Virus record (IMG/VR): IMGVR_UViG_3300037882_004082 | Coordinates: 1 to 27,516 of that record | DNA from: a virus | Reading direction: 5' to 3' (one strand) | Length of the DNA stretch: 27,516 bases | Shown: positions 4,238 to 27,106 of the stretch, piece by piece | Layout: every line of letters starts with the position of its first letter | How positions within the stretch are numbered: position 1 is the first letter of the stretch | The notes under the pieces: generated by a model | Databases searched by the model: none | Told to the model about the DNA's origin: nothing | The model's input: only the letters and a program-made list of their open reading frames with translations | Made by a program: the position numbers and the translations under genes

Positions 4238-6205
4238 TTAGTTAGAAGAAATCGCAATTTCGGTATCTTGTACTGCTTTTACTAGGGTTCGATTGATGGC
4301 TTCGCCTATGATGTGTGGGTCGAAGTCGCGGGTATTTTGTATGTGAAAGCTCTCTACTCCATTCATGCGCTGAATGGTGACATTGATGTTTCGGATATTT
4401 TTGCCGCCTCCTAGTGTGTCGTCGCGGTCTTTTTTAGCTGCGCTTAGGTCAGGGAGGGCAGTTGGCTTTTTGCTCTTGCCGTCGGCTTTGTTTTGTCCTA
4501 TCAATTCGGATAAGCTTTTACTCTTCAAATCTTCGGTACGCAGTGTTTGGAGTTTGTCTTGCAAAATAGCTTCGTAGTATTTTTTGCCTCCGCGCCCTTT
4601 GTAGCCGTCGCTATTGAGTACGCTTATCATGTTGGTGTATATCTCTTTTTGCTGTTCCTTGTTAGCACCTTCTAAGTATTGCATAGAAGAGCCTACATAA
4701 TCCAGTACTTTGCCATCGAAGTAGTGTTTTTTGGTATCATTGGCATCAATACGCTCTGTGCCTAAGCCATAGGAGGCAACGTCTGCCCAGTTTTGGGAGG
4801 TTTTTCGCCCGTGCATTTGGGTTTCGCGTCCCCAGTTCCGAATGGTATCGGGGGCGTGCCATACTGCACTCAATGCTGCGCCAACTCCTTTGACCATCAT
4901 ACCAATGCCTTCGATGGACTGCGAAAATACTTTTAATCCGATGGTTGCTGCGGGTAATAGTTCCGTGCCGAGCTTAGTGAGTTCGTTGTTGAAATTTACT
5001 TTTAGCTTTTCTGTAAGCAAGGTAATGTCTTTGTCTGCATTTTGTGTCGCTTTTGCCATGTTGTAGGTCACGGTATTGTACTTATTGAGCTGCTCCATTG
5101 CGGTTTCACTTCGTTGCCCAAAGAGTTTGACCATATTGATAAAACCCTCACTGCCTGAGAAAAGGTTTATTACTTTTGCCAATTCGCGGTCATTTCCTTT
5201 GATGCTATCCGTTTTTTGGGCAAGGTCTTTGAAGATTTCATCAAACTGTCGCATTTGATTGTTGGTATCATATACCTTAATTTTAAGTTTATCGAATGCT
5301 TCTAAGTTTCTCTCGTCTGACAGGTCTTTGAAAAACTCTTTTGTTCCCGTAGCGGCTTCATCAGCGGTGTTGTACATTTGGCTTTGTAGCAAAAAGGCTT
5401 TGCCCGCACTGTTCGCTGATTGCCGTGAGCTACTGGCATTGCTCGCAAAATCCGCTTGTAAGCGTCCTGCTTGGTCGGTATTCATACTGCCTAGCATGGC
5501 GGTGCGATAGATAGCCTCATTGTATTTGTCCACATCTGTTTCGCCGTAGGCTAGCATGGATTTTCCTGCGCTACTTACATAGTTGTTAAAATCTGCTCCA
5601 AAGTTTCGGGCAAACTTTCCCAATTTTGTAATATCTCCTACGGCATCGGTGCTAAACTTACCGATTGAGCTTTGGTAGTCAAAAAAAGCAGTAGTCATCT
5701 TATCGCTGCTTATACCAATGTCGTTGCTTGTTTTGAGGACATTCTCCCGTAGCGAGTCTATCTGACCATTGCTTTTGTCTAGGTTCAGTTGCTCTAAACT
5801 TAGAAAGCTATGTTGAAAATCTATTGCTTTGCTTGTTGCATCTGCGATGCCAGCTGCAACGGCAGTTATACCCATTGCCGCCGCGCTACCTGCACTACCT
5901 GCGAAGTCGCCTATACCTACACCGCCTAATTCGGGCAGTGCATCGGAAGCGCGGTCGCGGAGCGTGCGGCTGAAGTCTGGTCTGAAGCCACTTTTGCCAA
6001 TTTTGTCCAAGTGCGCTTGTAGTGACTTGGCATTGTTGAGGGCTTCTTTGAGTTCGCGGTTAAATTTATTCATGCTGCCTATGTCTAGTTTGTCAATTTT
6101 GACAAGGCGTTTGGTGAGTTCGTCCGCAGCTTCTTTGGATTTTTCGATAGCAGGGATAAGCAAGTTCTTGACTTGCAACTCGGTCAATATAACGGTTTTA
6201 CTCAT
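4238..6205 (-). CDS. Tail tape measure protein
   Basis: A 655-residue, mostly helical protein. Residues 1-85 are coiled coil, 94-125 are a Gly/Ala-rich hydrophobic segment, and about 130-360 resemble the TP901-type tape measure core (KAIDFQHSFLSLEQL, ENVLKTSNDIGISSDKM, repeated Gly-Ser-Asn-rich helices). A second hydrophobic stretch lies near residues 415-445. It sets the length of the tail tube during assembly and is ejected with the DNA. Its ATG overlaps the MuF stop in an ATGA arrangement, so it is translationally coupled to head genes. It is on the opposite strand and about 14 kb from the sheath, tube and chaperone genes, which is unusual, since chaperones normally sit directly before it. 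Confidence 0.82.
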   Translation of the reverse strand: MSKTVILTELQVKNLLIPAIEKSKEAADELTKRLVKIDKLDIGSMNKFNRELKEALNNAKSLQAHLDKIGKSGFRPDFSRTLRDRASDALPELGGVGIGDFAGSAGSAAAMGITAVAAGIADATSKAIDFQHSFLSLEQLNLDKSNGQIDSLRENVLKTSNDIGISSDKMTTAFFDYQSSIGKFSTDAVGDITKLGKFARNFGADFNNYVSSAGKSMLAYGETDVDKYNEAIYRTAMLGSMNTDQAGRLQADFASNASSSRQSANSAGKAFLLQSQMYNTADEAATGTKEFFKDLSDERNLEAFDKLKIKVYDTNNQMRQFDEIFKDLAQKTDSIKGNDRELAKVINLFSGSEGFINMVKLFGQRSETAMEQLNKYNTVTYNMAKATQNADKDITLLTEKLKVNFNNELTKLGTELLPAATIGLKVFSQSIEGIGMMVKGVGAALSAVWHAPDTIRNWGRETQMHGRKTSQNWADVASYGLGTERIDANDTKKHYFDGKVLDYVGSSMQYLEGANKEQQKEIYTNMISVLNSDGYKGRGGKKYYEAILQDKLQTLRTEDLKSKSLSELIGQNKADGKSKKPTALPDLSAAKKDRDDTLGGGKNIRNINVTIQRMNGVESFHIQNTRDFDPHIIGEAINRTLVKAVQDTEIAISSN

Positions 6206-7446
6206 GGCTGTGGTGATTGAAATAGTAAAATACCTTCGCGTAAGTCATTGATAATCTTAGTTTTATAAAAGGTATTAATGGCTGTCACGGTTTCGATTTC
6301 AGTTTTGCTAAACTGGATATTTAGTGCGATGGTTCTATCCTCAAAAAACAGAAGGTGTCGTCTATTGTATAGGTCGCCTTCGAGTTGCCACACTTCATCG
6401 GGTTTTTGTAGGGCATTTTCGATTTGCAGTATGGTGTGCGTTTCTTGTTCTTCGATGATTTCTGCCATCAATGCTCTATCTATCTCAATAGGTCGTGCGC
6501 GGTAATCAAGCAATCGGATTGTTTCGTCATCGGTCAATTCGTTTTTACCGATTTGGCTTTTAAACCAGTTTTGGGTTTCGATTTCGCTTAGTGTTGGCGT
6601 ATGGAATTTTGCCTTTCCTACTGTTGGAGTTGCGCTCAATTTGTAGCTTTTGTAATCCAGTCCGTTGGGTTCAAAGCCTTTGATGTATTCTTCATTTTTA
6701 GTAAAAATGATGTGCTGCGCGCCTCTATTTTGGTCCCAGCCTTTTTCTGTCATGGTGTTCCACTCTGTTCCTAGTGCGCCAATTGCTTGTTCTAGAGTGG
6801 AGGCTTTCCCTTTTGAAACAGGTATCATCTCACAACGGCAATTCCATGAGTTGGGTGGATAGATGCGAGTTAGGGCTTCGTCCCCGATTTTGAATGTCAT
6901 GCCATCAAGTGCGCGGTGTGCTGCGCGCACGCGCTCGTCGCCCACTGTTTGATATTGCAGATAGGGATATACGTCAGCATCTGCCATAAACCGCCGATAC
7001 TGTGCAGCATTGGTCGCCACGCTGCGGGCAGTGTTGTACTCGGTTTTGAGCCAGTTTCGGTTGTACTCTATTGCTAATGTTTTTGCTTTTTGCTCAAAAT
7101 CATTGAAATCTATTGCTGCATTTTTAAACTCATTTAAGGCTTGCACCAATGCGAGGTTTTTGGCTGCCGAAAAACGGGCAACATTGGCTTCTAGGAGTGT
7201 CTTGTATAGATTGTCCTTGGTGTTGTAGTCAATGGTTGCACCATAGCCTTCTGCGATGCCTCGTGTCAGCTCTTGTGCTATGGCATGGGTACTTGCTGCG
7301 TCAAGCTCTCCTTTTTGTAATTTTTTTTCCCAAACTCGCTTGATTAGTTCTAAATCAAGTGCGTTTGGGCGTGGAGTATCTTCACTAGATAAGGTGATGA
7401 TGGTGGTGCAACAATCATTCGGATAGTTGGGCAGTTGTAGGCTCAT
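6202..7446 (-). other. MuF domain as possible separate cistron (internal start at 7446)
   Basis: An ATG at 7444-7446 begins MSLQLPNYPNDCCTT, giving a 414-residue MuF protein, the usual independent gene in Mu-like phages. If the A11 tract at 7457-7467 were read or present as A10, the portal frame would end in TGA overlapping this ATG (ATGA), exactly as MuF overlaps the tape measure gene. The internal start is therefore plausible as an independent or coupled product. Confidence 0.45.
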
Positions 7447-8769
7447 GGCGATTGTCTTTTTTTTTTTACTCCCTTCGGGTAGCGGGTTGTTTTTTTGTAC
7501 TTGTTTCTCTTTTTGGGCATTTATGGCGTTTGCTTCTGCTGCCGTTGGTTCGGGAATAGAAAAACGCTCATAAATAAAGGAAGGCGGAATATCAATAAAT
7601 GGCTGTAATTTTGCTAAAACATCGCTCAATTGAGCAAGGTTTAGCTTTTCGTTGTGATCATACGCTAGTACGCCTTCCCCAAGATCGTAGCCGTGTAGTG
7701 AAAGGATATGCTTAAATTTATCATTCAAATCGAACTCCACCCCCATTTTGTAGTGGGCGATGACTTCACGCTCTGTATCGAGATGCGTTTGACTTTGCGA
7801 TAAGGAACTCCCTGCTTCGGTTGTCATGGTTTGCCCAAGGAATAACTTACTTATTTCCTTGTTGTGGAAGGCAGCGTGCATCTCAAAGGCTTGGTAGTTT
7901 CCTGCCTTTGCGCTGTCTTTTAACTCAAACTCACTGCCGATGGGTACAGCGATGCCACCATTAGAACCACGGTTTTCGAGGCTTTGTTTGGCTTCGTTGT
8001 ACGAACCTGGAATACGTGGGTCGTACTTGATGACAGGGATAGGCATTCCGTAAATTTCGAGAAATTCCGCAGCATCGCGCATACCGAAGCGTTTGTACAT
8101 GATGGACGGTACAGCTTTATTGAGCAAGCCCAAATCGTCGCTTGCTCCAATTTCTAAAAGAAAAAAGTTATAGGGGGGGTCGCGATATGGAATACCTGTC
8201 TGGTCGCTTTGATTTTGGAGAATGTCTCCAAACTCAGGGCGGACGTTCCAACGGTATATCAATTCCACTCCTTGCTGTTGCACTGGGTCAAATTGCGGGT
8301 GCAGAAAATTTAACTGGATTAGGCTGTGTCCCCAAAACCTTGCATCAATGATGTGCTTGATGAGGTCTTGAAAAAACTTGGTTTTCAAAATCTTATTGAT
8401 TGGGTGCTTGGTATCTGGTTTTCCATTTACTAGGTAAAGGATTTGCGTGTTGGTGCATTTGAACCTTATCCTGTCCATAACGGCTTGCAGGTGTGTGTCC
8501 AATACGATTTCCTTGTAGATGTTGTAGAGGTAGTTGCGGTTTGGAAAAAAAGGATTTTCAGCAAACTCAAGCGCTTGTTTCCACTCCTCCAACTCGTAGC
8601 TGCGACGCGGCATATAGGCTCTTTCGATTTCAAGGTTTTTGCCTCTCATCGGAACGGACTGCATTAGGTTATTTTGCATGGACAATGCTACATCGGGCAT
8701 TTTTTCTGCTTTTTCAGAATAGGCGGTTTTTAGGCGATTTAAGCAACTATTTTTATTTGTGGCTGTCAT
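6202..8769 (-). CDS. Portal (DUF935/Mu gp29) fused to MuF head protein (gp30) with BECR-like C-terminus
   Basis: An 855-residue fusion. Residues 1-415 are a DUF935 portal: LYNIYKEIVLDTHLQAVMDR, EIYGMPIPVIKYD, GQTMTTEAGSSLSQSQTHLD, then a Pro-rich end. Residues about 460-655 are a Mu gpF minor head domain with RAAHRALDGMTF and YPPNSWNCRCEMIPV. The last 80 residues (PDEVW, then a strand-rich stretch) resemble phage-type Barnase/EndoU/ColicinE5/RelE-like domains often found behind MuF. The join is the sequence EGSKKKKTIAMS, encoded by an 11-A tract ending ten bases before an internal ATG. I start at ATG 8767-8769; an in-frame ATG at 8838 adds a 23-residue unrecognisable stretch. The portal forms the DNA channel, MuF enters the capsid. 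The gene may be two cistrons in reality. Confidence 0.82.
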   Translation of the reverse strand: MTATNKNSCLNRLKTAYSEKAEKMPDVALSMQNNLMQSVPMRGKNLEIERAYMPRRSYELEEWKQALEFAENPFFPNRNYLYNIYKEIVLDTHLQAVMDRIRFKCTNTQILYLVNGKPDTKHPINKILKTKFFQDLIKHIIDARFWGHSLIQLNFLHPQFDPVQQQGVELIYRWNVRPEFGDILQNQSDQTGIPYRDPPYNFFLLEIGASDDLGLLNKAVPSIMYKRFGMRDAAEFLEIYGMPIPVIKYDPRIPGSYNEAKQSLENRGSNGGIAVPIGSEFELKDSAKAGNYQAFEMHAAFHNKEISKLFLGQTMTTEAGSSLSQSQTHLDTEREVIAHYKMGVEFDLNDKFKHILSLHGYDLGEGVLAYDHNEKLNLAQLSDVLAKLQPFIDIPPSFIYERFSIPEPTAAEANAINAQKEKQVQKNNPLPEGSKKKKTIAMSLQLPNYPNDCCTTIITLSSEDTPRPNALDLELIKRVWEKKLQKGELDAASTHAIAQELTRGIAEGYGATIDYNTKDNLYKTLLEANVARFSAAKNLALVQALNEFKNAAIDFNDFEQKAKTLAIEYNRNWLKTEYNTARSVATNAAQYRRFMADADVYPYLQYQTVGDERVRAAHRALDGMTFKIGDEALTRIYPPNSWNCRCEMIPVSKGKASTLEQAIGALGTEWNTMTEKGWDQNRGAQHIIFTKNEEYIKGFEPNGLDYKSYKLSATPTVGKAKFHTPTLSEIETQNWFKSQIGKNELTDDETIRLLDYRARPIEIDRALMAEIIEEQETHTILQIENALQKPDEVWQLEGDLYNRRHLLFFEDRTIALNIQFSKTEIETVTAINTFYKTKIINDLREGILLFQSPQP
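7457..7467 (-). other. A11 homopolymer at the portal/MuF junction
   Basis: Eleven T on the plus strand (A11 in the mRNA) code for Lys codons in the linker. Tracts of this length are prone to transcriptional slippage, replication slippage and sequencing miscalls. Loss of one A closes the portal frame at a TGA overlapping the MuF ATG. Confidence 0.6.
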
Positions 8770-8860
8770 ATACGGAAAGTTAAAAATAAAAGAATTTGAA
8801 CAGTAATTGAACAGGGTTACGGCGATTTTATGAAACAAAAAAGTAATTGGAATTTAAAAC

Positions 8861-13109: not shown

Positions 13110-14084
13110 ATGTCTGGATTACAAAAAGAATTTTATTCGAGTATGCTTGTTAAAGTGACCGATAAATTTTGGAATAGAGCTGCATTTTTAGGCGACGGAA
13201 AAAGCATGACAGATTTAGTAAAAACTGTTCGTGACCAGAATGCGAAAGATGGTTATTTCCAATACATTAATTTCCCTATTCAGGGAGGCAGACCAACCAT
13301 TACTAAGAATTTTCGTACCAATGGTACGACTACATTGTCAGTATATGACCGTGTTGATACTCCTGAACGTATTGGTTTAGAAAATTATTCCACTCAGCAG
13401 ATAATGATGCCTTCGGTGGATTTGTACACGTTGGCATACAATAAATGGGGTGATATGTTGGACGAAACGGGACAGGCATTGACTGAGGATATTGCGAAAG
13501 AGGGGATTTGGAAAATTGCCCCACCAACGAATGTACCGAATAAGTTGCCTGTTTTCAATGTTGCAAGTACGAACCCTGTGTTGGAAGATGGCAAAAAATC
13601 AATAACCGAAGCCGATATTATGAAATTGCGAAATCAGCTAAATGTAGCTTATCCCGCTTTAATTAATGCGCCGTGGGTGCTGATGGTAGATACATATTCA
13701 TTCAGTGAATTGGTTAAAAACTCGAATGTTTTACAGCAACAACAAGCATTTAAAGGCTTGTATGGAAAGGTGAACAGCGATTTGCCTGCATTTAAAATAT
13801 GGGGTTTTGAAATTCGCGAAGAGGGCGATTTGCCTTACTATGGTGGTTTGGTAAAAAAAGCTCTAGGTAGTGTTCCAATTTTGGCAGATAGCCGTTCTGC
13901 GGTGGCTTATGTCAAGCAAAAAACCTACGTGGTTGCAAGAGGTATGACACAAACCTTTTCTACGTTGAATGATGCAGGTCGCCAAGCGGATTTTGTGTCC
14001 TTCTTGACTCGCGCATATATTGGTCCATTCGGTGAGAATATCAGTAACTTGATGTGGGCGGGGGCGATTTTGCGAACCCCATAA
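13110..14084 (+). CDS. Major capsid protein
   Basis: A 324-residue protein in the expected place after the protease. It begins with an N-terminal helix (LQKEFYSSMLVKVTDKFWNR), has a long β-rich centre and a C-terminal part with TYVVARGMTQTFSTLNDAG and AYIGPFGENISNL, consistent with an HK97-like fold. Several hundred copies would form the icosahedral shell. No cleavage site is evident, though the protease suggests that either scaffold or capsid is cut. It is followed by a stem-loop that may end part of the transcript, which would suit a highly expressed gene. The call rests on position, length and general composition as well as similarity to Bacteroidota phage capsids. Confidence 0.75.
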   Translation: MSGLQKEFYSSMLVKVTDKFWNRAAFLGDGKSMTDLVKTVRDQNAKDGYFQYINFPIQGGRPTITKNFRTNGTTTLSVYDRVDTPERIGLENYSTQQIMMPSVDLYTLAYNKWGDMLDETGQALTEDIAKEGIWKIAPPTNVPNKLPVFNVASTNPVLEDGKKSITEADIMKLRNQLNVAYPALINAPWVLMVDTYSFSELVKNSNVLQQQQAFKGLYGKVNSDLPAFKIWGFEIREEGDLPYYGGLVKKALGSVPILADSRSAVAYVKQKTYVVARGMTQTFSTLNDAGRQADFVSFLTRAYIGPFGENISNLMWAGAILRTP

Positions 14085-14121
14085 TTATATTTGGCTTCTT
14101 TTTTTTTTTGGTAATAGTTTG

Positions 14122-14175: not shown

Positions 14176-14451
14176 ATGCCTTATAACATTAAACTCGCAA
14201 CTCGTTTTGTACCTTATTCAAATGGGTATCTTTTCGGGGAGGCTACTCCACTCCAAAAGGAAGACTATAATCCTTACCGTGTTGCAGTAAGACCTACTGT
14301 AATAGACCTCAATGGTCGCTATGAGCAAATAGAAGAACCTAGTGTTGCTTTTCAAGGTGACGGAATAGGTGACGTGCCGAATGGAGCATGGGTGACAGCA
14401 GATGGTGCTGTCTATACAGGTGATGATGGGATATGGGTTGAGCCTTCTTAA
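14176..14451 (+). CDS. Small hypothetical structural protein (decoration or fibre-adaptor candidate)
   Basis: A 91-residue protein, β-rich, Pro/Tyr/Gly-rich, without signal peptide or membrane segment. Its end, GAWVTADGAVYTGDDGIWVEPS, resembles the end of the LysM-like baseplate protein at 21650 (QWVTADGETWGNAGEQGWNN). It is placed between the capsid and the fibre-like gene, where capsid decoration proteins are common. Function unknown. Confidence 0.55.
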   Translation: MPYNIKLATRFVPYSNGYLFGEATPLQKEDYNPYRVAVRPTVIDLNGRYEQIEEPSVAFQGDGIGDVPNGAWVTADGAVYTGDDGIWVEPS

Positions 14452-18714: not shown

Positions 18715-19971
18715 ATGGGAATACCTAAATTAATTATCAATCGCATTGCGGGTGGTCTTGGTCGTTTTGTTCAAAATGATGAAGGACAGGCTGCTCTGAT
18801 TGCAGGTGGAGTGAGTGTTGTAGGCGGCGTACAACTAGATACACCATACTTGCTAAATTCACTCAAAGCAGCAAAAGGTCTAAATATTACGGCTGACTAT
18901 GATGTTTCTAATAAAATATTAGTCTATTATCATATTTCAGAATTTTTTAGACTAAACCCAACGGGAAAGTTGTATTTGATGCTTGTTGCACAAAACACAT
19001 CGCTTACTGCAATGTGTGACAAAGCGAATGATAACTTGAAAAAGTTACTACAATTTGGGCAAGGAAACATTCGCAAAGCGGGAGTTGTCTTGAATCCGAA
19101 TATTAATTACACTCCTACACTACAAGATGGTTTAGATGCAGATGTTTTGGCAGCTATTCCAGTTGCACAAGATTTGGCGGACTACTGCTATGCCAATGGT
19201 TTTGCCGTCAATAACATTTGCATCGAAGGTAGAAGTTTTAACGGAACAGTTGGAAGTGCAAAAGACTTAACCGCCTTAGTTGGCGGACCTTATAGAGATA
19301 TAAGTGTTTGTATTGCACAAGATATATTAATTGCTTCGGTAGATGCGCTATTTGCGCCAACAGCAGCCATTGGGACATATCTTGGTGTGGCAACAAACAA
19401 ACGTCCGAGCGAATGTTTTGCACAACCTATTCTAAGAAACAATTTGACCAATGCAATTTATGGTCGTTTTCTGAAAGCAGGATTGAGCAATAGCCAAACA
19501 TTGAGCAGTTTAGACCAAAACGATGTAGATTTATTACACGATAAAGGCTATGTTTTTACTCGTACTTTTAATAATTACGCTGGGGTCTATTTTAATCAAT
19601 CCAATGTCTGCGCTCCTAAGACTGATGACTATGATAGTTCTGAAATGCGCGATGTAATGAATTATGCAGTTCGGTTAGTTTCGCCTGTTTTGGTGCCTTA
19701 TTTGAACAGTACTGATTTTCAGATTGATTCAGGTGGGCGCATTGCTAAGGTGAGTAAAGCACTGGTTGAAGCTGATGTACGTAAGGCATTACGTGCGCTA
19801 GCTTCTGAGGTAAGTGAAATTCGCTTTATCTTCATCGACCCAACAGTCGATGAAGATGGAAATTCTTACCCTTCTTTTTTATCTGAAAAAGTGTTGCGGG
19901 TAAATATTGGATTTATTCCGAAAGGGAAGGCTGAAACAATTATCGCTAACTTGGGTTACACCACAAAATAA
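18715..19971 (+). CDS. Contractile tail sheath protein (DUF2586-like)
   Basis: A 418-residue protein with the order seen in DUF2586-type sheath proteins: an N-terminal part with GGVSVVGGVQLDTPYLLNSL, a Rossmann-like middle (ISVCIAQDILIAS, NKRPSECFAQP, LLHDKGYVFTRTFNNYAGVYFNQSN) and a C-terminal part with RDVMNYAVRLVSPVLVPYL, DVRKALRAL and IGFIPKGKAE. It polymerises around the tail tube and contracts to drive it through the cell envelope. The tube protein follows nine bases later. Together these show a myovirus-type tail, as in phage Mu. Confidence 0.82.
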   Translation: MGIPKLIINRIAGGLGRFVQNDEGQAALIAGGVSVVGGVQLDTPYLLNSLKAAKGLNITADYDVSNKILVYYHISEFFRLNPTGKLYLMLVAQNTSLTAMCDKANDNLKKLLQFGQGNIRKAGVVLNPNINYTPTLQDGLDADVLAAIPVAQDLADYCYANGFAVNNICIEGRSFNGTVGSAKDLTALVGGPYRDISVCIAQDILIASVDALFAPTAAIGTYLGVATNKRPSECFAQPILRNNLTNAIYGRFLKAGLSNSQTLSSLDQNDVDLLHDKGYVFTRTFNNYAGVYFNQSNVCAPKTDDYDSSEMRDVMNYAVRLVSPVLVPYLNSTDFQIDSGGRIAKVSKALVEADVRKALRALASEVSEIRFIFIDPTVDEDGNSYPSFLSEKVLRVNIGFIPKGKAETIIANLGYTTK

Positions 19972-25217: not shown

Positions 25218-26024
25218 ATGGCTGAAAAGCAAAAAGTAAATTCTTTATTAAAACCACCAATTTCATATTATGGCGGCAAGCAACAATTGTTAAGTAGAAT
25301 TCTACCACTCATTCCTGCACACGAAAAATACATTGAACCATTTACTGGTGGTGGTGCTGTATTTTGGAGTAAAGAACCTTCCAAAGTGGAAGTTCTTAAT
25401 GATTTAAACGGTTTTATTTCTAATTTCTATGAAGTTTGTAAAACACGTTTTGAGGACTTAGACCGTTTGATTAAATCCAAGCCTTATAGCCGCCTAACGC
25501 ATGATCACGCGCTTGTTATTATGACTAACGCCGAAATGTTTGGTAAAGTCAAACGCGCTTGGGCGTTTTACTATTTGGCTAACACATCTATGTTTTCCAT
25601 ACTAGATGCGCCGCAAAAAACACCCGACAATAAAAACAAACCAATCAATACGTACAACAATAAAAACGATCGTTTTACTGCTGTGTATGAGGAACGTTTG
25701 AAGAATGTGCATATTGAAAGCCGCGATGCGCTATATATCATTTCAAAGAATGATGCAGCCGATAATTTCATGTTCATTGATCCTCCATATTTCAATAGTG
25801 AGTGCGGGCATTATGCTGGGTACTCAAAGGAGGATTATAGGAATTTATTGGACAAGTTGGCAATTACACAGAGTAAGTTTTTATTAACTTCTTATCCGTC
25901 TGATATACTTAACGAGTATATTGAAAAGTACGGCTGGATTGTTGAGCGACACGATATGTCACTTTCAGTGAGTAATAAATCAAAGCGTAAAACAGAAGTG
26001 TTTGTACGCAATTATAAAGCCTAA
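25218..26024 (+). CDS. dam: DNA adenine-N6 methyltransferase (Dam/D12 class)
   Basis: A 268-residue class D12 methyltransferase. The AdoMet-binding start is SYYGGKQQLLSRILPLIP (residues 13-30) with YIEPFTGGGAVFW (38-50; FxGxG motif); Asp in VLNDLNGFISNFYE binds the cofactor; the catalytic DPPY motif is at FIDPPYFNSECGHY (about 189-202). The target domain lies between (NTSMFSILDAPQK onward). It methylates adenine N6, by family usually in GATC. As a lone phage enzyme without a restriction partner it probably protects phage DNA or modulates transposition or packaging. It stands after a 48-base gap from the tail genes and is followed by a strong terminator. Confidence 0.9.
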   Translation: MAEKQKVNSLLKPPISYYGGKQQLLSRILPLIPAHEKYIEPFTGGGAVFWSKEPSKVEVLNDLNGFISNFYEVCKTRFEDLDRLIKSKPYSRLTHDHALVIMTNAEMFGKVKRAWAFYYLANTSMFSILDAPQKTPDNKNKPINTYNNKNDRFTAVYEERLKNVHIESRDALYIISKNDAADNFMFIDPPYFNSECGHYAGYSKEDYRNLLDKLAITQSKFLLTSYPSDILNEYIEKYGWIVERHDMSLSVSNKSKRKTEVFVRNYKA

Positions 26025-26167: not shown

Positions 26168-27106
26168 ATGAATATTGAAATTCAAAATATTTTATCACAA
26201 AGTAGCACTAAGACTGCCAAGATACAAGCATTAATTTTATTCGGACTTACTAGAACAGAAATAGCAGCCTTAGTAGCAAATGGAAATTATGGCTTTGTAC
26301 AAAATGTATATACAGCAATGAAGCGCAATGGTAAATTAAACACCATTGCGCTTCTTAATTTTACGCCAAAGCCTTTTGATAAACGCTTTGGTATTGAGAT
26401 AGAGGCGTATAATGTAAATAAGTCGCTTCTGTCAAAAAAATTAATAGAATCAGGAATAAATGTTTTTTCCGAAAACTATAACCATAATACTTGTACGTAT
26501 TGGAAAATAGTCAATGACTCTAGTATTGATGGCTCAAATGGCTTTGAGTTAGTTAGCCCAGTACTTGAAGGATTAGGTGGGTTAGAACAGGTTAAAATTG
26601 TTTGTGATGTTTTAAGACAGTGTAATGCTTATATCAATAAAAGTTGTGGTTTGCATATACATTTCGATGCAAGTAATTTAACATTAAAAAATTGGAAAAA
26701 TATATATAAGAATTATGGAGGCTTTGAAAATGAAATTGATAGTTTGATGCCACAAAGTCGGAGAGCTAATTCAAATAAATATTGCAGAAGTCTAAAAAGT
26801 ATTGTAAATTTGGACTTAAAATTAGAAGCTGCTAAAAGCCTAGCTGCAATTGCCAATATTTTTAATAACACACGTTATTTTAAAATTAATCCAATTTCTT
26901 ATGCTCGCCACCAAACAATAGAGTTTCGCCAACACTCTGGAACAATAGAATTTGAAAAAGTACAAAACTGGGTAACTTTCTTACATAATTTAGTAGATTA
27001 TTCAGCGGACAACCTAGCTACTGATTTTACTTTTGATGGGTTTTCTAAATTTAATCAACAAGAAATTACAAATTATTATCATAATCGCAAACAAGATTTA
27101 ATTTAA
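26168..27106 (+). CDS. Putative amidoligase (GCS-like COOH-NH2 ligase) with N-terminal HTH-like domain
   Basis: A 312-residue protein. Residues 70-275 carry the signatures of the amidoligase_2 family (glutamine synthetase/GCS-like fold): KRFGIEIEAYN (72-82), WKIVNDSSI (112-120), FELVSPVLEG (126-135), CGLHIHFDA (160-168), MPQSRRANSNKYC (194-206) and TIEFRQHSGTIEF (250-262). The Glu and His residues in these would bind metal-ATP, as in the family. Such enzymes form amide bonds between an amine and a carboxylate; substrates here are unknown. Residues 12-55 (KIQALILFGLTRTEIAALVA, then NGNYGFVQNVYTAMKRNG) look like a DNA- or RNA-binding HTH. The gene has its own promoter and is followed at five bases by a 79-residue partner. 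Confidence 0.82.
   Translation: MNIEIQNILSQSSTKTAKIQALILFGLTRTEIAALVANGNYGFVQNVYTAMKRNGKLNTIALLNFTPKPFDKRFGIEIEAYNVNKSLLSKKLIESGINVFSENYNHNTCTYWKIVNDSSIDGSNGFELVSPVLEGLGGLEQVKIVCDVLRQCNAYINKSCGLHIHFDASNLTLKNWKNIYKNYGGFENEIDSLMPQSRRANSNKYCRSLKSIVNLDLKLEAAKSLAAIANIFNNTRYFKINPISYARHQTIEFRQHSGTIEFEKVQNWVTFLHNLVDYSADNLATDFTFDGFSKFNQQEITNYYHNRKQDLI
26320..26354. other. Perfect 13-bp hairpin inside the amidoligase gene
   Basis: GAAGCGCAATGGT (26320-26332) is exactly complementary to 26342-26354 around a nine-base loop. It falls between the HTH-like and catalytic domains (residues 51-63). Confidence 0.75.

Follow-up and report, generated by a model that had tools for sequence, protein, structure and literature searches.

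A probable programmed slippage site at a phage portal–MuF joint, and candidate recoding signals at the same joint in Bacteroidota relatives

Is a homopolymer that lies exactly where a portal domain meets a MuF domain a signal, the trace of a fusion, or an error of sequencing? The question is raised by the 27,516-nucleotide stretch of viral DNA analysed here (IMG/VR record IMGVR_UViG_3300037882_004082; hereafter, the window), in which one minus-strand frame, running from an ATG at 8769 to 6205 and encoding 855 residues, matches both Portal_Mu (PF06074, E 1.7e-62) and Phage_Mu_F (PF04233, E 2.5e-18) above the cut-off. The frame is open from a TTG at 8838, a start that would give 878 residues. 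Direct reading places a run of eleven adenines (A11) at 7457–7467 of the minus strand, exactly at the joint and within the single frame, as an earlier, sequence-only reading of this DNA had stated; its context is AGT AAA AAA AAA AAG ACA ATC GCC ATG AGC (S-KKKK-TIAMS), and the joint site is present once in the 27.5-kb IMG/VR contig. The four lysines of the tract fall inside residues 422–467 (7369–7506, minus strand), a linker that has the portal and MuF domains on either side and is predicted by a structure model to be disordered (pLDDT < 50). A PBECR2 nuclease-like domain (6217–6507, minus strand; PF18810, E 3.7e-07, above the cut-off) forms the C-terminal end of the MuF part, which is possibly a MuF-type polymorphic toxin and in this phage would be tethered to the portal. 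Elsewhere, the plus strand of the window encodes an S24/HTH repressor-like protein (522–1271), a DUF2586 tail-sheath-like protein (18715–19971), making a contractile tail likely, a D12 adenine methyltransferase (25218–26024) and an amidoligase (26168–27106).

Judging from sequence comparison, we consider it quite likely that this A11 is a programmed slippage site, by which the expression of one gene would be split into two proteins. Messenger RNA with eleven As would yield the portal–MuF fusion, the 855-codon frame (6205–8769, minus strand) corresponding to the unslipped transcript, and mRNA with one A more or fewer would yield a portal stopping 14 or 4 codons past the tract, respectively. An added A (frame −1) would lead to a TGA at 7415–7417 and to a product of 451 residues (7415–8769, minus strand) with the tail KKKKDNRHEPTTAQLSE, while a lost A (frame +1) would give 441 residues (7444–8769, minus strand) with the tail SKKKRQSP and a TGA, its last base at 7443, that overlaps the MuF ATG as ATGA (7443–7446). 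The sequence-only reading had foreseen both this overlap and a short product arising by loss of an A, although it put the length at about 445 residues rather than the 441 found. The A10 mRNA could also allow re-initiation at the overlapping ATG, giving a MuF part with its own stop (6205–7446, minus strand) that holds the PF04233 and PBECR2 matches. On the simplest account, slipped mRNA would specify bare portal, with added As commoner than lost ones. Both shifted frames of the window end no more than 14 codons past the tract, in the linker, with the complete portal domain before them. Of the non-redundant fused A-tract loci, the window included, all 22 have a stop within 15 codons in each shifted frame, compared with 12.8 on average for random positions in the same ORFs.

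As an uninterrupted run of at least nine As in a coding region, the tract belongs to the A/T ≥ 9 class of transcriptional slippage sites. Its occurrence is unremarkable by composition, since the window holds four runs of ten or more As against 2.5 expected and 26 of 100 composition shuffles reach four, so that the argument must rest on position and on relatives. The second and only other A11 of the window (14099–14109, minus strand) is intergenic, lying between an ORF that ends at 14084 and one that starts at 14176. That such runs are not rare favours an explanation we regard as improbable, namely that the fusion is fixed and the tract incidental: the 855-residue fusion alone would matter, the A11 would stem from a lysine-rich linker in an A-rich phage, and slippage products would be noise. 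The excess of closed shifted frames speaks against it, and relatives provide further evidence on both sides.

Alignment-based searches of viral contigs and genomes gave 128 loci, mostly from Bacteroidota, of which 124 were usable; they were gathered by similarity, their redundancy was reduced by simple filters, and several are MAGs. Portal and MuF share one ORF in 84 of the 124, spread over the Bacteroidota set, a proportion biased upward because the query alignment held fused proteins. Phages of Porphyromonas gingivalis, 28% identical and without an A-tract, likewise encode both domains in a single ORF. A form so widespread argues that the fusion is not young, and the earlier suggestion of a recent fusion created by one inserted A was abandoned. 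In two loci (L038 and L321), the portal stop is followed at once by a MuF ORF in the same frame (TAA ATG in L038). The portal/MuF of one Clostridia MAG contig (L117), possibly misbinned, clusters closely with that of a Rikenellaceae locus (L120). In trees, the window stands alone on a deep branch, sharing no more than 34–35% identity with anything, varying in its exact place and falling outside both A-tract clades; its grouping with proteobacterial loci in a first tree changed in a second, was taken as long-branch placement and was left unused. Close relatives were absent from a nucleotide search of phages and from samples of 395 Bacteroidota genomes (largely one overlapping sample), and single-protein searches of viral and genome contigs returned none or distant ones only. 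The comparison of A10 and A11 among relatives, which the sequence-only reading had recommended, was made on fF4-like and L068-like tracts, no close relative of the window having been found.

At loci that lack the T6-hairpin signal described below, eight sense runs of at least nine As lie in 12.9 kb of joints, whereas the remaining 73 kb of their portal and MuF genes has none, so that such runs are enriched where the window has its own; at T6-hairpin loci, neither 17 kb of joints nor 95 kb elsewhere contains one. Among fF4-like loci, which like the L068-like ones form a larger group that came from searches started at A-tract loci, 31 of 35 fused joints carry A9 (4), A10 (20) or A11 (7), and a further 102 kb of these portal and MuF genes contains no other run of nine or more. 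The first nine tract bases are identical in all 31, whereas neighbouring 9-nt blocks average 31–65% identity. The four remaining fused joints (one with A7, three with fewer than seven As) indicate that the fusion can be kept without a tract, and the ten split fF4-like loci have no tract of eight or more, the MuF ATG of most of them lying well before the portal stop. Eight loci of the L068-like group have A10 at the end of the portal, and about eighteen others have T6C in that position; MuF is in frame −1 with either signal and mostly lacks an ATG, which argues that the same shift is obtained by either signal within one clade. Conservation of the tract beyond its flanks is thus seen in fF4-like and L068-like relatives, the window having no close relative for comparison. 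An incidental tract would agree with the commonness of single-ORF fusions, with the three fF4-like joints of 35 that have fewer than seven As and with the 5 of 46 fused relatives that carry neither an A-tract nor the T6-hairpin signal; it is hard to reconcile with the lack of such runs elsewhere in the same genes, with a tract kept while its flanks diverge, and with its exchange for a frameshift signal.

The same tracts bear on the suspicion of a homopolymer miscall, under which the true sequence would be A10 and portal and MuF would be two ordinary genes joined by an ATGA overlap and translational coupling. The next junction in the operon, between MuF and the tape measure, does use ATGA (6202–6205), as the sequence-only reading had correctly noted, and tract length differs between near-identical records: GenBank fF4 (L004, MN850656) has A9 and two ORFs, and a 98% identical IMG record (L292) has A10 and one ORF, a difference that is either true variation or a tract-length error. 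However, the frame is consistent among relatives, whether they have A9, A10 or A11, and 31 of 32 fF4-type records have nine to eleven As in the fused frame, which random errors of one base either way would not give. At ATG-A, chance readily produces an ATGA in the alternative frame, and a true A10 would still be slippery. We therefore hold a miscall to be very improbable.

The sequence-only reading had also held that relatives fused without any homopolymer would speak against slippage. Such relatives exist, but the objection holds only superficially and was dropped, because most of them carry a T_TTT_TT[C/T] heptamer and a hairpin at that place. In 81 non-redundant loci, this heptamer, in the portal frame and followed about 6 nt on by a perfect GC stem, is found in 35 of the 46 that are fused and in 10 of the 35 that are split. 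The FF pair at fused joints is encoded as T_TTT_TT[C/T] in 36 of 36 cases (6.6 expected from synonymous codon shuffles, which count related loci as independent); away from the joint, these ORFs use it for 8 of 53 FF pairs. The −1 frame of fused loci has a short tail with PH in 32 of 36 (4.1 expected). RNA 3′ of the site in fused loci is more stable than that of synonymous shuffles (mean z −1.84), and the stem arm starts at +6 in 41 of 49 loci, other tested offsets giving 0–2 of 49. Most stems share one G-C rich sequence, with few matched changes, so covariation is modest; Rfam held no family matching the signal in the loci tried. Among these relatives, MuF either shares the portal frame (0) or lies in −1. 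At split loci, the portal ends shortly past the start of the hairpin, with a tail such as FFGKAPGRDGAALEW, and frame −1 runs into MuF via a stretch that is conserved (GSFRLVVNxLYYG and similar) and that often lacks a preceding ATG; in a B. thetaiotaomicron phage with the T6 signal (L006), the predicted −1 fusion joint reads FF followed by RESPGERRGSFR, and the bare portal would end in GAALEW.

A blind scan of viral contigs for TTTTTTC-N6-GCCCCG-N3..8-CGGGGC, which used DNA alone and no protein information, returned at least 120 sites. Profile searches found portal and/or MuF within 1.8 kb of 115 of 120 sites among the matches listed, the other five (L188, L197, L228, L263 and L288) having no such match nearby. 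Among the 104 distinct sites in the matches listed, 79 combine a portal in frame 0 with a long −1 frame downstream, and another 22 have a fused ORF whose −1 tail is short. Just past the portal FF, the −1 frame of fused loci (L010, L011, L021 and others) conserves a tail, FFR..P..RG..W.[SC]PH, to a degree that far exceeds the demands of frame 0. Two loci (L064 and L111) have the W.CPH tail in the portal's own frame and MuF in +1, with T6C and a hairpin-like repeat present though MuF is not in −1, an arrangement that suggests a +1/−2 shift or an upstream indel. We regard a conserved, putative −1 ribosomal frameshift at the portal/MuF joint of these relatives as established by comparison.

Which machine would slip at the A11 of the window is a separate matter. 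A ribosomal shift of −1 on A_AAA_AAA or A_AAA_AAG, with the portal ending 14 codons later, would have the same outcome, and we give this account a minor though real chance. Both heptamers are in frame in the window, −1 signals of ribosomal type occur at this joint in relatives, and one of these relatives (L070) combines an A7 heptamer with a MuF in frame −1. Shine-Dalgarno-like elements precede the slippery site at some ribosomal frameshift sites, and a candidate sequence of this kind, GAAGGGAG / GAAGGGAGT (7468–7476, minus strand), stands directly 5′ of the A11. Measured against the −1 frameshift class, however, the window has the heptamer in the right frame but not the downstream structure that T6 relatives possess: a hairpin was looked for past the tract and none was found (MFE −1.8, z +1.46). 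The A-tract groups likewise show no stimulatory structure (mean z −0.17 and −0.36, compared with −1.08 at T6 sites of the same clade), and their tracts, nine to eleven long, exceed what a heptamer needs. A hairpin at T6 sites only is what would be expected if A-tracts act on RNA polymerase and T6 on the ribosome. Slippage by RNA polymerase is the likelier mechanism in the window, given that an A11 needs no helper structure and that none follows it, with a ribosomal contribution being possible. In Escherichia coli and Buchnera, transcription insertions rise exponentially with homopolymer length, and A/T runs are where they fall (PMC5574713). The A11 of Citrobacter rodentium tssM1 slips in about 20% of cases, giving mRNA with 10–15 As, and both protein lengths are needed (PMC4256274). 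The earlier proposal that programmed slippage makes portal alone as well as portal–MuF is, on sequence grounds, strongly supported by comparison with relatives; that the tract slips, how often, and that its purpose would be to set the ratio of bare to MuF-bearing portal are what we infer.

Taken together, these observations make it likely that the portal–MuF joint is a family-wide programmed recoding device of Bacteroidota Mu-like phages, supplying bare and MuF-bearing portal in a set ratio. Its signal would be either T6[C/T] with a hairpin or A9–A11, interchangeably, with MuF in frame 0 or −1 and with the −1 tail FFR..P..RG..W.SPH having a selected function of its own, and the window would be an A11 member. 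If true, this would show how a phage can place a limited number of MuF-bearing chains in a 12-fold portal ring, and would explain why many MuF frames of these phages begin without a start codon and have been annotated from one further along. It would also provide a natural experiment in which a ribosome signal and a probable RNA polymerase signal replace each other at one site. The parts are of known kinds: a Mu portal, MuF, A-tract slippage and heptamer-hairpin frameshifting. We found no earlier report of recoding at the portal/MuF joint in the open-access literature searched, most subscription papers lying outside it, nor, in the same literature, of two interchangeable signals there with either frame as the long one. 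Passages retrieved from papers on P. gingivalis phages, fF4, Leptospira transposable prophages and P. aeruginosa Mu-like phages make no mention of a portal/MuF frameshift, and neither do those from a frameshift review and from the GeneTack and PRFect predictor papers.

Among phage assembly genes, tail chaperones and a few capsid proteins provide most of the known programmed frameshifts. Xu, Hendrix and Duda reportedly described −1 frameshifting in tail assembly chaperones in 2004, and dnaX uses −1 programmed ribosomal frameshifting on a slippery heptamer followed by a hairpin. Relatives of the window resemble this class in having, at the joint, T_TTT_TT[C/T] followed after a fixed 6-nt spacer by a GC hairpin, and in the fused ones, as in dnaX, the short product would be the shifted one; the window itself has A11 instead of a hairpin, and portal/MuF in place of a tail chaperone. 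The major head protein of bacteriophage A2 is said to be subject to a −1 frameshift (Garcia et al. 2004), which, as predicted for the window, gives a head protein in two lengths by recoding, but A2 extends a major capsid protein at its C-terminus, whereas the window fuses a portal with MuF. The portal–MuF fusion as such is already a protein cluster, PHROG 35074, whose 890-position profile matches both halves of the window gene; its function is listed as unknown, and the search output is silent on recoding. The Pseudomonas Mu-like phage PaMx73 carries T_TTT_TTC, as relatives of the window do, although at putative tail assembly genes (core ORFs 35/36) and not at portal/MuF (PMC4378225). A close parallel in form to the window is tssM1, where, likewise, exactly eleven As in a coding region, with no helper structure, specify two protein lengths (PMC4256274). 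Slippage and both length variants are proven there and predicted here, and the genes are unrelated; the unslipped frame encodes the short form in tssM1 and the long form in the window.
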